Source: Gemmatimonadales bacterium
GTDB lineage: Bacteria > Gemmatimonadota > Gemmatimonadetes > Gemmatimonadales > GWC2-71-9
Assembly: GCA_036500345.1 (NCBI GenBank)
Contig: DASYCE010000015.1
Location: 62,001-126,000, forward strand
DNA length: 64,000 nt
Direction: 5' to 3'
The notes under the pieces were generated by a model. That model searched no databases and was not told where the DNA came from. It saw only the letters and a list, made by a program, of their open reading frames with translations. The stretch's first letter is position 1. The number at the start of each line of letters is the position of its first letter. This document shows positions 33,613 through 40,810 of this stretch, in pieces. The position numbers and the translations under genes were made by a program.

Positions 33613-34203
33613 ATGAATCGGATGGTCATGCGAAGCGCCAGCGGGTTCGCCACGATCGTTGCAGCTGCCGCACCGTCGCTCGCAGCCCAGGGGACGTGTC
33701 CGGGTGGCCAGGTTGCGGTGGTTCAGGTCCAGCTGATCCTCGGCGGCATTCCACGGTACGCCCAGAAGGATTCGGACCTGACCGTCGTTGCATCGGACTA
33801 CCGCACCCAGCTGGCAAAGCAGGAGGCGGTCCTCGATTCGGCGACTGACGCCTATCAGGCCAAGGCGGCGGGCCTCGGCGGGTCAGCGCGGGGGATCGAA
33901 CTCGCGAAGTTGCGAGGCCAGGATTCGGCGGTCAAGGCGCAGTCGCAGCGGCTGCAGGACCAGCTCGCGCACGAACGGCAGCTTCGTCTGCAGCCGATCG
34001 AACTCGGTGTCCAGGCGGAGCTCGACTCGGTGCGCTCCGATCTCCATTGTGCGATGGTCTTCGATGCGGGGTCGACCCCGGGGCTGGCATCGTTGAACCG
34101 GAAGATCGATCTGACACAACTGGTCCTCGACCGCATCAACGCCCACGGCGACACGGCCCTGTTCGGCCCGCACTCCGCGTTGCCCGGCGCGCGCAAACCG
34201 TAG
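33613..34203 (+). CDS. OmpH/Skp-like periplasmic chaperone
   Basis: This is a 196-residue exported protein: a signal peptide ending near SLAAQG, a beta strand VAVVQVQLILGGIP, then a long predicted coiled-coil of heptad-like Gln/Leu/Ala/Arg residues (about 60-140). It returns to a strand with IDLTQLVLDRIN, the Skp/OmpH "jellyfish" layout. Skp normally carries unfolded outer-membrane proteins to the Bam complex. Two cysteines (about residues 29 and 149) in the predicted head could pair. AAGGAG sits 7 nt before the ATG. It is unusual that no bamA, lpxD or fabZ gene is adjacent. The gene ends in a hairpin shared with the convergent peptidase gene. Confidence 0.72.
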   Translation: MNRMVMRSASGFATIVAAAAPSLAAQGTCPGGQVAVVQVQLILGGIPRYAQKDSDLTVVASDYRTQLAKQEAVLDSATDAYQAKAAGLGGSARGIELAKLRGQDSAVKAQSQRLQDQLAHERQLRLQPIELGVQAELDSVRSDLHCAMVFDAGSTPGLASLNRKIDLTQLVLDRINAHGDTALFGPHSALPGARKP

Positions 34204-34227
34204 CGGTCGTCGACCGTCGCGCTACGG
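34198..34227. terminator. Hairpin spanning two convergent stop codons
   Basis: CCGTAGCG (34198-34205) pairs perfectly with CGCTACGG (34220-34227), with a smaller GTC/GAC stem inside. The TAG stops of the Skp-like gene and of the convergent M28 peptidase lie in opposite arms. It is likely a bidirectional 3'-end structure; no U-tract is present. Confidence 0.5.
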
Positions 34228-35187
34228 CCTGGTCGGCGGCGCCGCGTCGAACCGACGAATGAAATCTGCGACGTCGCGGACCGCGCCCGCGTAGAATGCC
34301 GGCATGATCCGGTCGGCGTGATCGGTCGCGCGATGATAGTCCGGGTGATCTTCCTCACCGAAATAGACGAACGGGATGCTGTGGTCGTTGAAGGCGCCCT
34401 GGTCGGACTGGTTGGTCCAGTCATCGCCGCCCGGCGCTCCGGGGCCATCGTGACCGATCGTCAGCTTGATCGCCGAGCAACCGATCGTCCGCTCCACCAG
34501 CGGCCGCAGCTGCGGATACCGCGTCGGGCCGGCGGCGTACAACTCGTTGTGCACGTTGCGACCGACCATGTCCATGTTCACGTCGATCAGCACCTTGTCG
34601 AGCGGGATCGGTGCCGCCGCAACCCACGCATGACTTCCCACATCGCCGGATTCTTCGGCGTCGAAGGCGACAAAGACCAGCGAGTGCCGCGGCCGCTCCT
34701 GTGAAAAGAGCCGGGCGAGCGCCAGCAGGCCGCTGGTTCCCGAGGCGTTGTCGTCGGCACCATTGCAGATCGAGTCCGCACCGCTGGGACGGCATTGCGC
34801 CCCTGGTTCGACCCGGCCGATGTGATCGAAATGCGCCGAGACCACGATGTACTCGTCGGGAGTCACCGAGCCGCGAATCACGCCGACGACATTGGAGCCA
34901 GTGATCCCGCCGCGCCGGCTCTGCGCCGTGAACGGCTGGATCCGCCCCGGAGGGATGCGGTCGAGTCCGATGGCGTCGAAACGGGCGGCGATGAAATCGC
35001 GCGCCTTGAAATTCCCGGTGGTGCCGACGCGGCGCCCCTGCATCGAGTCGTCCGCCAGCCGGAAGAGATCGTGCAGCATCCCGGCCGAATCGATCGCTTC
35101 CCCAGGACACGACGGTGCCTGCGCTGCGGCCGGCGGAACCGCGGCAATCACGAGAAGGAGTGGAAGGACTGCAGCGCGTCGAGGCAT
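34222..35187 (-). CDS. M28 family metallopeptidase, exported
   Basis: This is a 321-residue zinc aminopeptidase-type hydrolase. Signal peptide: MPRRAAVLPLLLVIAAVPPAAAQ. The M28 residues are in order: VVSAHFDHIG (first His), NGADDNASGTSGLL (bridging Asp), VFVAFDAEESGDVGSHAW (general-base and ligand Glu), VNMDMVGRNVH and the final His in YHRATDHADRI. Substrate would be peptides or N-acylated amino compounds in the periplasm. The ATG at 35187 has GGAG 5 nt upstream; an ATG at 35214 would displace the signal peptide. Cysteines in SCPGEA, QCRPSG, ICNGAD and GCSAIK suggest disulfides, consistent with export. Confidence 0.9.
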   Translation of the reverse strand: MPRRAAVLPLLLVIAAVPPAAAQAPSCPGEAIDSAGMLHDLFRLADDSMQGRRVGTTGNFKARDFIAARFDAIGLDRIPPGRIQPFTAQSRRGGITGSNVVGVIRGSVTPDEYIVVSAHFDHIGRVEPGAQCRPSGADSICNGADDNASGTSGLLALARLFSQERPRHSLVFVAFDAEESGDVGSHAWVAAAPIPLDKVLIDVNMDMVGRNVHNELYAAGPTRYPQLRPLVERTIGCSAIKLTIGHDGPGAPGGDDWTNQSDQGAFNDHSIPFVYFGEEDHPDYHRATDHADRIMPAFYAGAVRDVADFIRRFDAAPPTRP

Positions 35188-35220
35188 GATTACTCCGAAG
35201 GAGACTTTATTCAACGGCTA

Positions 35221-36483
35221 TCACAACCATTGGGATAGCGCGTAGATCACCAGCCCGGCGAGGCCGCCGACCAGCGTGCCGTTGAGCCGGATGAATTGCA
35301 GGTCGCGCCCGACGGCGAGTTCGATGCGCTGCGAGGCGACCTGCGGGTCCCAGTCGCGGACCGTCGCCGCAATGAGGTCGGCGACTTCGTGCCGATGCTG
35401 TTCGAGCAACGAGGCGGCCAGGTCGATCACGAAGCGATCGACTTCGTTGCGGAGTTCCGCGTTCGCGGCGAGCGACTCGGCGATGGCGGCGAGGACGGTC
35501 TCGATCGGCTCGAGCGAGGCGTGTTCGGGGTCGGTGCGGTAGCGGGTTGCCGCGTCGCGGATCCGGTCCCACATCGAGGAGACGAGATCGAGGACGACCG
35601 GATGGCCTAGAAGGTCGTGCTTCAGGCGCTCAGCGCGAGCGATCATTTCCGGCGACGTCTTCAGGCGCTGGATGAAATCCCGGACCACACTGTCGAAGCG
35701 GGCGCGCAGCGGGTGCGCCGGATCGGCCGAGACCTCGGCGAGCAATCGCTGCATTCCGCCGATCATCCGGTCGGCGATGGCATCGCGCACGCCGAGCGGC
35801 AGCCAGCGCGGACTCTCCTGGCGTACCTTGGCCCGGATGACGTCGCGACCGTCGTCCACCGCGCCGCCGATCAGTCGTGTCGCTTCGTCGAGCAGCTCCT
35901 GCGGCCGGCCGTCGGCGGTGGCGATCGTGAGCACGTCACCCACCAGCGGCGCGAGCTGCATCGCTTCGAGGCGCGACACGGCGCTGCGCTGCATGAAGTC
36001 GCGGATGTCGTCGTCGGGGAGCGCTTCGACCGCGCGGGCGAGGCCGCCGGCGAGGTTGCGGGCGAGTTCAGTCCGGTGTGCGGGATCGTTCAACCAGTCC
36101 GCGGCGCGCGACGCCGGACGGATTCCTGCAAGTCGCGCGTCGAGGACGGCGCGCGAGAGGAAATGGTTCTGTACGAAGTTGCCGAGGATCCGCCCGACGC
36201 GATCCTTCTGGGTCTGCATGATGGCGGTGTGCGGAATGCGCAGGCCGAGCGGGTGTCGGAAGAGCGCAGTCACTGCGAACCAGTCGGCGATCCCGCCCAC
36301 CAGCGATGCTTCGGCGGTGGCGCGGACGTAGCCGAGCCATGGGTGCAGCGGTTCGAGGATGCGGGCGATGATGAAGATGGCGAGCGCCACGACCAGCATC
36401 CCCGACGCGACCAGTTTCATCCGGCGGAGGGCGCGCCGCCGGGATGCTTCGTCAAGAGGCTGCGGGGCGTCGAATGCTGCCAT
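35221..36483 (-). CDS. DUF445 family membrane protein
   Basis: This 420-residue protein has an N-terminal membrane helix (MKLVASGMLVVALAIFIIARIL). The DUF445 signature follows: LVGGIADWFAVTALFRHPLGLRIPHTAIMQTQKDRVGRILG. A long amphipathic helical region and a C-terminal membrane segment (LVGGLAGLVIYALSQWL) complete it. Function of the family (YjiN and relatives) is unknown. The ATG at 36483 lies 5 nt downstream of the 3' end of tRNA-Ser(GGA) on the same strand, with no room for a promoter or a ribosome site outside the tRNA. The message is thus probably released by tRNA 3' processing as an almost leaderless mRNA. Confidence 0.87.
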   Translation of the reverse strand: MAAFDAPQPLDEASRRRALRRMKLVASGMLVVALAIFIIARILEPLHPWLGYVRATAEASLVGGIADWFAVTALFRHPLGLRIPHTAIMQTQKDRVGRILGNFVQNHFLSRAVLDARLAGIRPASRAADWLNDPAHRTELARNLAGGLARAVEALPDDDIRDFMQRSAVSRLEAMQLAPLVGDVLTIATADGRPQELLDEATRLIGGAVDDGRDVIRAKVRQESPRWLPLGVRDAIADRMIGGMQRLLAEVSADPAHPLRARFDSVVRDFIQRLKTSPEMIARAERLKHDLLGHPVVLDLVSSMWDRIRDAATRYRTDPEHASLEPIETVLAAIAESLAANAELRNEVDRFVIDLAASLLEQHRHEVADLIAATVRDWDPQVASQRIELAVGRDLQFIRLNGTLVGGLAGLVIYALSQWL

Positions 36484-36488
36484 GGCTA

Positions 36489-36577
36489 CGGACAGGGAGG
36501 GATTCGAACCCTCGAGACGGCTTGCACCGCCTACACGCGTTCCAGGCGTGCCTCTTAAACCACTCGAGCACCTGTCC
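36489..36577 (-). tRNA. tRNA-Ser (anticodon GGA)
   Basis: This 89-nt class II tRNA has acceptor stem GGACAGG/CCTGTCC and an anticodon arm CACGC-CTGGAAC-GCGTG giving anticodon GGA. The variable arm is long (TAGGCGGTGCAAGCCGTCTC) and the T-arm is GAGGGTTCGAATCCCTC. The discriminator is G and no CCA is encoded. It reads UCC/UCU. A TATCTT box lies 11 nt upstream. The DUF445 start codon follows its 3' end by 5 nt. Confidence 0.95.
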
Positions 36578-36588
36578 CCGGGCGCGGG

Positions 36589-36594
36589 AAGATA
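36589..36594 (-). promoter_or_regulatory. Probable -10 box (TATCTT) for tRNA-Ser(GGA) and DUF445
   Basis: TATCTT ends 11 nt before the mature tRNA 5' end, in the 39-bp gap after msrB. The -35 is poor (a CTGACC-like hexamer about 20 bp upstream, inside msrB). If active, this promoter would also drive the DUF445 gene. Confidence 0.4.
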
Positions 36595-36616
36595 ATTGCG
36601 GTGTCGAGCCTGCCGG

Positions 36617-37192
36617 TCAGGGCTTCGTCTTGAACCCGGCGCGCTGGAAGAGCTGCAGGTACTTGCCGTAGCCGTCGGCGCTGAGTGAGTCGACCGGGAC
36701 GAAGCGCATCGACGCCGAGTTCATGCAGTAGCGCAGGCCGGTCGGCTTGGGGCCGTCGTCGAAGACATGGCCAAGATGGGAGTTCGCGTGTGCCGAACGG
36801 ACCTCGGTCCGATCCATTCCGAGCGTCTGATCGTCGTCGGTCTTGATGTTGCCGGGTTCGAGGGGCTTGGTGAACGATGGCCAGCCGGTCCCCGATTCGA
36901 ACTTGTCGAGCGAACTGAAGAGCGGTTCCCCGGAAACGATGTCGACGTAAATCCCCTGCTTGTGATTGTTCCAGTACTCGTTGTGGAATGGCGCCTCGGT
37001 CGCGGCATGCTGGGTCACTTCGTATTGCTCGGCCGTGAGCTTCTTGCGGAGCACCGCATCGCTCGGCTTGGTGTACTGGGTCGTTGCCGGTGCGGCGACG
37101 TGATTCGCCTGGGCACTCAGCGGCGCAATGACCCCGGCGGCGAGAGCGATCGCCGGAGCGATACGGATGAACAAGCTGACAGTGCGGTGCAT
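36617..37192 (-). CDS. msrB: Peptide-methionine (R)-S-oxide reductase MsrB, exported
   Basis: This 191-residue enzyme reduces methionine-R-sulfoxide in proteins. A signal peptide ([29 protein letters not shown]) places it in the periplasm. The MsrB core contains [44 protein letters not shown] and the catalytic Cys in [11 protein letters not shown]. That is the only cysteine in the protein. Both zinc CxxC pairs and the usual resolving-cysteine position (Thr in SGTGWPSF) lack cysteine, so recycling must use an external reductant directly on the sulfenic acid. The ATG at 37192 follows AGAAGGAA by 9 nt and opens the signal peptide. It is upstream of tRNA-Ser(GGA) on the same strand. Confidence 0.9.
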
Positions 37193-37266
37193 GACCTGGT
37201 TCCTTCTGCGACGGTGCGCGCCAGAGAACTGATACAAAATACTCGACCTGGAAAAGGAGCCGTTCA

Positions 37267-37284
37267 GCTGAGAAACGACTCAGC
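37267..37284. promoter_or_regulatory. Perfect inverted repeat, possible operator or hairpin
   Basis: GCTGAG, a 6-nt AAACGA spacer and CTCAGC form an 18-bp dyad, 75 bp upstream of the msrB start. It could be an operator for msrB or the 3' side of an unseen transcript; no U-tract is present. Confidence 0.35.
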
Positions 37285-37344
37285 GCCGGTCCGAAGTTCC
37301 ACGGGCAGGGTATCCGGAAATCCTCTCCCGGCGGGCTGCCGCGC

Positions 37345-37458
37345 GAGGCAGATCGTCTGTCGGGTCGCACGGACGGGTTGCGGGACGAGGCAGACGGGAT
37401 GGCGGGTTACCCCGACCCCCGGGGGAAGAGGCCGACGGCTTGTCGGGGTACCCGGACG
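37345..37458. repeat. Three degenerate 31-nt direct repeats, period 41-42 bp
   Basis: Units start at 37345, 37387 and 37428, each beginning GAGGC(A/C)GA. Units 2 and 3 both carry GGGTTACCCCGAC- or GGGGTACCCGGAC-like centres. By eye units 1 and 3 match at 22 of 31 positions and units 2 and 3 at 24 of 31. A related GGGTATCCGGA block lies at 37308-37318. It is noncoding as far as I can tell, and the role is unknown. Confidence 0.45.
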
Positions 37459-37573
37459 CCCTGTTGATCGAGACTGACGCCCCGACGACGTCGACTGACG
37501 GCGCTCCCTCTTCCGTGACACGCCCGAATCGCGCATCTTGCAGCGGCTTCCCCCTGCTTCCGCGAGACCATTG

Positions 37574-40806
<3,233 letters not shown>

Positions 40807-40810
<4 letters not shown>

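Follow-up and report, generated by a model that had tools for sequence, protein, structure and literature searches.

Excision of a tRNA is, taken as a whole, the best explanation of how the mRNA of a DUF445 membrane protein gene would obtain its 5' end in the Gemmatimonadales genome studied here, and we give this reading a probability of about 0.6. The gene lies in the window (the whole 64,000-nucleotide stretch that was analyzed), and its start codon stands almost directly behind tRNA-Ser(GGA) on the same strand (Table 1). A sequence-only reading of the window had proposed that the mRNA is made by tRNA processing, and this is still the most likely mechanism, if an unproven one. Comparison with relatives indicates that the junction is young, and similar junctions recur elsewhere in the family.

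The junction and the inverted tRNA

On the minus strand the junction reads ...CCCTGTCCG-TAGCC-ATGGCAGC..., and both ARAGORN and the sequence itself confirm the earlier placement of the tRNA end at 36489 and of the ATG at 36483, 5 nt apart. The ATG (36483-36481) opens a frame of 420 aa running to 35221, and the predicted protein matches PF04286 over residues 57-419 with 357.7 bits (cut-off 33.8), covering profile positions 1-367 of 368, which places it in that family. As the sequence-only reading had argued, 5 nt leave no room for a promoter or a Shine-Dalgarno (SD) sequence. No SD was found before the ATG, the 3' half of the tRNA included, and a site hidden in that half of the tRNA was rejected at this junction. 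TAnnnT was likewise absent, both 3-11 nt ahead of the ATG and 5-8 nt ahead of the in-frame starts that follow at codons 21-31, and the interval 34100-37600 gave no match to a consensus sigma-70 promoter. The gene does not have the leaderless-promoter arrangement (TAnnnT 5-8 nt before the start), and since it lacks a -10 of its own, the promoter of the tRNA is the nearest candidate left. The same TTATCTTC element occurs upstream of this tRNA in G001 and G008 (TATCTT in G009), and many other tRNAs of the window genome have TAnnTT boxes at similar upstream positions.

Table 1. Positions of the features discussed, in window coordinates, with the tRNA-gltX loci of the family given by locus
Feature	Position	Strand	Basis and remarks
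Peptidase M28 gene	34222..35187	-	PF04389; own GGAG at 35193-35196
DUF445 membrane protein gene, 420 aa	35221..36483	-	PF04286 E 1.6e-106; orthologue starts; dN/dS
Spacer TAGCC, 5 nt	36484..36488	-	sequence; 5' leader predicted to remain once RNase Z has cut
tRNA-Ser(GGA)	36489..36577	-	ARAGORN; CCA not encoded; T after discriminator G
Putative inverted block, tRNA + its -10 region	36489..36597, approximate		synteny in G001, G008, G009, G005, G004 + flanks
-10-like box TATCTT, candidate promoter of the tRNA, 11 nt before tRNA 5' end	36589..36594	-	same TTATCTTC element in relatives
msrB (SelR domain)	36617..37237	-	PF01641 E 5.1e-49; upstream, co-directional
tRNA-Ser(GCT)-gltX loci	L237 (G069), L232 (G033), L291 (G094), L321 (G110), L088 (G000:C31:161000-166500)		

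DUF445 orthologues begin within about 4 codons of the window start (MTAAPLDE, VTAPAPLDE and MTGPAAPLDE vs. MAAFDAPQPLDE), so the start does not appear to be obviously misplaced. A later conserved start codon, one of the findings that the sequence-only reading had named as fatal to it, was sought among the orthologues; neither their comparison nor the SD search gave it support. The window genome (G000) comprises 3.32 Mb in 32 contigs, and its statistics are drawn from sampled stretches. Only one of its 48 tRNAs, the junction tRNA-Ser(GGA), has a credible start codon within 10 nt of its 3' end; behind tRNA-Arg(TCT) a GTG lies in frame at +5, yet an SD-preceded ATG occurs further on in the same gene. 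No second GGA serine tRNA was found in the genome (the other match is a CGA serine tRNA), and the junction copy, we infer, must be transcribed. The M28 gene comes next after DUF445 in the same direction, as it also adjoins DUF445 in G001, G008, and G009, and is likely the last gene of the transcription unit, while read-through from msrB could reach the tRNA and DUF445.

In all five relatives of the genus with readable context (G001, G004, G005, G008, and G009), the tRNA lies on the strand opposite to that in the window, which points to an inversion of ~110 bp in the window. By this comparison the inversion would be lineage specific and would include the tRNA with its own -10 box (TATCTT), the exact breakpoints being approximate. 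The -10 region TTATCTTCCCGC moved together with the tRNA, so the rearranged unit is probably the tRNA plus its promoter. The ancestral order, in the orientation of the window, would be M28(-) DUF445(-) tRNA(+), after which come msrB or a different gene and, next, the large gene at 37538-40810. DUF445 is kept with an opposite-strand tRNA in G001, in G008 (two contigs), and in G009, where an extra 592-aa gene stands between the two; G004 and G005 have no DUF445 at the locus, and their tRNA is oriented relative to M28 as in the other relatives. The exact tRNA-DUF445 junction occurs in the window genome only among 102 family genomes. Conservation of the junction in relatives, proposed earlier as a check, therefore failed, with the tRNA flipped in five of them, and a conserved tRNA-DUF445 unit was ruled out. 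Because the tRNA points the other way in the genus, the junction is best read as the product of a lineage-specific inversion and not as a long-evolved regulatory device. Judging from G001 and G008, the TAGCC spacer is possibly a remnant of an ancestral TAGCTT -10. Upstream of DUF445 in G009 (L002/L034), GAGACGAGAGACGAGAGACGAG and an inverted copy of it flank a short spacer just before the start, and no TAnnnT -10 is left there either.

Probable leaderless initiation and the proposed processing route

Among DUF445 orthologues, TAnnnT precedes an early start by 6-8 nt in 15 of 26, as in TAGCTT-CATACC-ATG (G008) and TAGCTT-GAAGGG-GTG (G001). We read this placement as the signature of a leaderless promoter, by which DUF445 would be ancestrally leaderless. 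In a 464-kb sample of the window genome, the motif was observed 5-8 nt before an early ATG or GTG 30 times, compared with ~3 expected from internal codons, and an SD was also present in only two of these 30 genes; thus a start codon close to the 5' end of an RNA probably serves as a normal signal for initiation in this genome and its clade. The ribosome site that the sequence-only reading had placed inside the tRNA is consequently not needed. About 1/10 of the genes in a whole-genome sample (L094-L113 plus the window) have TAnnnT 5-8 nt before the start. This pattern suggests frequent leaderless transcription in this lineage of Gemmatimonadota.

Leaders of <10 nt are counted as leaderless in Propionibacterium acnes (PMC3848588) and Streptomyces (PMC4681348), and TAnnnT is a common -10 in P. 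acnes (PMC3848588). The DUF445 promoters of the relatives resemble those of such actinobacterial mRNAs, whose 5' ends (in mycobacteria as well; PMC4633059) are transcription start sites, whereas the 5' end in the window would come from tRNA 3' processing and carry a monophosphate. In mycobacteria, initiation at a start codon lying a few nucleotides from the 5' end is believed to be weaker than at a codon placed at +1 (PMC4633059), which counts against our reading. We found no paper joining leaderless, Gemmatimonas, and promoter in the open-access literature.

The window genome encodes an RNase Z (330.5 bits, above the curated cut-off), and nearly all of its tRNA genes are without an encoded CCA, tRNA-Thr(TGT) looking like an exception; a T adjoins the discriminator in 45 of 49 tRNAs as called. 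The junction has several of the features expected of tRNA punctuation: a start 5 nt from the 3' end of a same-strand tRNA, no separate promoter between them (the gap is too short, and neither TAnnnT nor a sigma-70-like site is present), and a 3' cutting enzyme together with a tRNA that lacks an encoded CCA. By predicted folding, the 5' region of the cut mRNA is weakly structured compared with shuffles (z +1.2) and the tRNA is very stable (z -3.3).

We propose that the inversion reversed tRNA-Ser(GGA) together with its -10 box, so that both read into DUF445, and displaced the leaderless promoter of that gene. A tRNA-DUF445-M28 precursor would then be transcribed from the promoter of the tRNA, and perhaps also by read-through out of msrB; from this precursor RNase P and RNase Z would excise the tRNA, as expected from established tRNA processing and from the RNase Z gene found. 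The RNase Z cut after the discriminator would leave a 5'-phosphorylated mRNA, UAGCC-AUG, with a 5-nt leader, which would be translated by leaderless-type initiation, apparently in use for many genes of this clade and the apparent ancestral mode for DUF445 itself; M28, with its own GGAG, would be translated conventionally. The geometry, the RNase Z gene, the missing CCA, the T after the discriminator, the lack of a promoter of its own, the probable leaderless initiation in the genome, and comparable junctions at genes whose expression is required all favor the processing origin that was first suggested for this mRNA, and the failure of the junction to be conserved counts against it. That DUF445 expression is coupled to tRNA maturation, also suggested then, is plausible, the geometry being its sole support.

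Bacterial tRNA-mRNA operons, such as those of the tRNA-tufB type and secG-leuU in E. coli, are co-transcribed and separated by processing, and the window would resemble them in both respects. The window genome itself has a tRNA-Thr(GGT)-EF-Tu arrangement, in which the tuf start lies 120 nt after the tRNA and leaves room for an ordinary ribosome site, unlike the 5-nt spacer of the window. A closer likeness is found in mitochondria, where excision of an adjacent tRNA sets the mRNA 5' end, the start codon lies at or a few nucleotides from that end, and there is no SD. The window shares the near-end start and the missing SD and, as proposed, the 5' end made by tRNA excision, but it is part of a bacterial chromosome, its upstream tRNA appears to have its own promoter, and a single gene rather than a whole genome is involved. 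The tRNA punctuation model of mitochondrial transcripts is cited in PMC4633059. Cleavage by E. coli MazF makes mRNAs leaderless, as described in PMC3848588; there too an endonuclease makes the leaderless end, but MazF is a stress toxin that leaves a 5'-hydroxyl, whereas the process proposed here would be constitutive tRNA maturation. Searches of open-access text turned up no account of a bacterial mRNA that becomes leaderless through processing of a tRNA 3' end.

Constraint on DUF445 and alternative explanations

Pairwise dN/dS (NG86) between the window DUF445 and its relatives is 0.11-0.17, and roughly half of the relatives that were searched lack the gene. Lineage-specific residue changes in DUF445 number 27 in the window genome vs. 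8, 19, and 21 in the others; the corresponding counts for M28 are 11 vs. 14, 14, and 23. The excess in DUF445 relative to M28 (Fisher p 0.02, in a test chosen after seeing the counts) is modest and would be compatible with weaker constraint or with weaker expression. It bears on one explanation that we consider unlikely, namely that the inversion severed DUF445 from its promoter and left a gene that is barely or accidentally expressed and maybe being lost, its RNA exposed to decay by the 5' monophosphate. The dispensability of DUF445 in the clade, the modest excess of changes, and the restriction of the junction to one genome would all fit; against this, the 420-aa frame is intact, the dN/dS values are low (although most of the divergence may predate the inversion), and comparable junctions persist at genes under constraint. 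It is improbable that DUF445 is driven by a weak promoter lying within the tRNA or at the gene start, giving a primary transcript to which the position of the tRNA is incidental. Promoters of this organism are AT-poor and TAnnnT was the sole pattern tested, so that non-consensus boxes are conceivable, but neither the stretch before the ATG nor those before codons 21-31 hold that pattern, and the region has no sigma-70-like site.

Three further explanations seem to us very improbable. Were Met22 (36420) the start of translation, with more 5' sequence ahead of it, the ATG conserved there (the RMK motif) in most orthologues would be accounted for, but the preceding stretch PLDE..SRR.AL.R is conserved in the genus from the annotated starts onward, several of these starts are directly preceded by a leaderless -10, and no SD stands before Met22. 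Ribosomes might also bind next to the folded tRNA while the precursor is still uncut, so that expression would need no cleavage; standby binding to unstructured RNA is possible and folding is weak downstream of the ATG, but the missing SD and the gap of only 5 nt between acceptor stem and AUG would argue against such loading. Finally, the inversion could be an assembly error, being seen in one assembly only, but a typical read is longer than the flipped segment, which takes in flank beyond the 7-bp acceptor-stem repeat and lies within a 200-kb contig.

Similar junctions across the family

For a wider comparison, tRNA 3' ends followed 3-7 nt later by an ATG were collected from the 102 family genomes, with a few hits added from an earlier 14-genome scan; genes and starts were called not from annotation but with a simple score of codon context, for which the window genome had served as training set. 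Of 62 tRNA-confirmed junctions, 13 (~9 independent) have a coding frame from that ATG. Enrichment of starts at this distance was rejected: coding starts are equally frequent at 13-17 nt (12/63; p 0.83), so short gaps between tRNA and start are tolerated rather than favored. In two species uppP (BacA family) begins 5 nt after tRNA-Ala(TGC), and other coding junctions involve a bacterial PH-domain protein, a response regulator, and an AMP-binding enzyme. In G069, gltX begins 6 nt after tRNA-Ser(GCT); it is the sole match to the gltX model in this genome (about 93% complete), has neither an SD nor a -10, and encodes an N-terminus, MTVRVRFAPSPTG, without a later start before codon 17. Five genera have tRNA-Ser(GCT) directly upstream of and co-directional with gltX, at gaps of 6 to about 100 nt, a conserved tRNA-synthetase pairing.

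In five species of genus g28, a membrane ORF begins 3-10 nt behind tRNA-Ser(CGA). It is conserved from the first residues onward (pairwise dN/dS 0.12-0.29) and matches no Pfam family above cut-off; if the junction is ancestral to the five, these ORFs would have diverged under it. In this genus (L176, L177, L180, L183, and L185) a tRNA-Ser(GGA)-tRNA-Ser(CGA) pair precedes the ORF, which is about 250 aa long, with an HhH-GPD-like gene in between in G028 and G019. An HhH-GPD glycosylase gene of G028 has its GTG start 5 nt after tRNA-Ser(GGA). At L179 (G067) the junction and the first eight codons are kept, the rest of the membrane ORF is gone, and the following repeat-protein gene is fused in frame. 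In G009 (L196, G009:C13:61012), tRNA-Gln(TTG) lies 5 nt before the start of a MacB-like permease, with an alternative ATG 12 nt further on; here and in a tRNA-Asn case (L256) the 3' half of the tRNA contains a sequence resembling GGAG or GAGG, and both are weaker examples. A tRNA-Met followed by an ORF of only 60 aa (L077) was not counted, and the initial search, which missed the G009 tRNA-Gln case, found no tight junction among 30 tRNAs of G043.

Given the junctions at gltX, the g28 ORF, the G028 glycosylase, and other genes, expression across such junctions likely works in the family, and we regard this recurrence as more interesting than the single DUF445 case. Whether the family routinely makes near-leaderless mRNA 5' ends by tRNA 3' processing, even for the essential gltX, we would put slightly short of an even chance; leaderless initiation would make starts behind tRNAs usable, and small inversions or deletions would create new junctions, DUF445 being an example. 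Start codons of this kind could be misassigned by gene finders that look for an SD or for some spacing behind a tRNA. If processing does set the 5' end, a bacterium would be making translatable mRNAs by tRNA excision, without a promoter or ribosome site of their own, which would explain how genes survive rearrangements beside tRNAs in leaderless-rich genomes and would provide a bacterial parallel to the processing of organelle transcripts.
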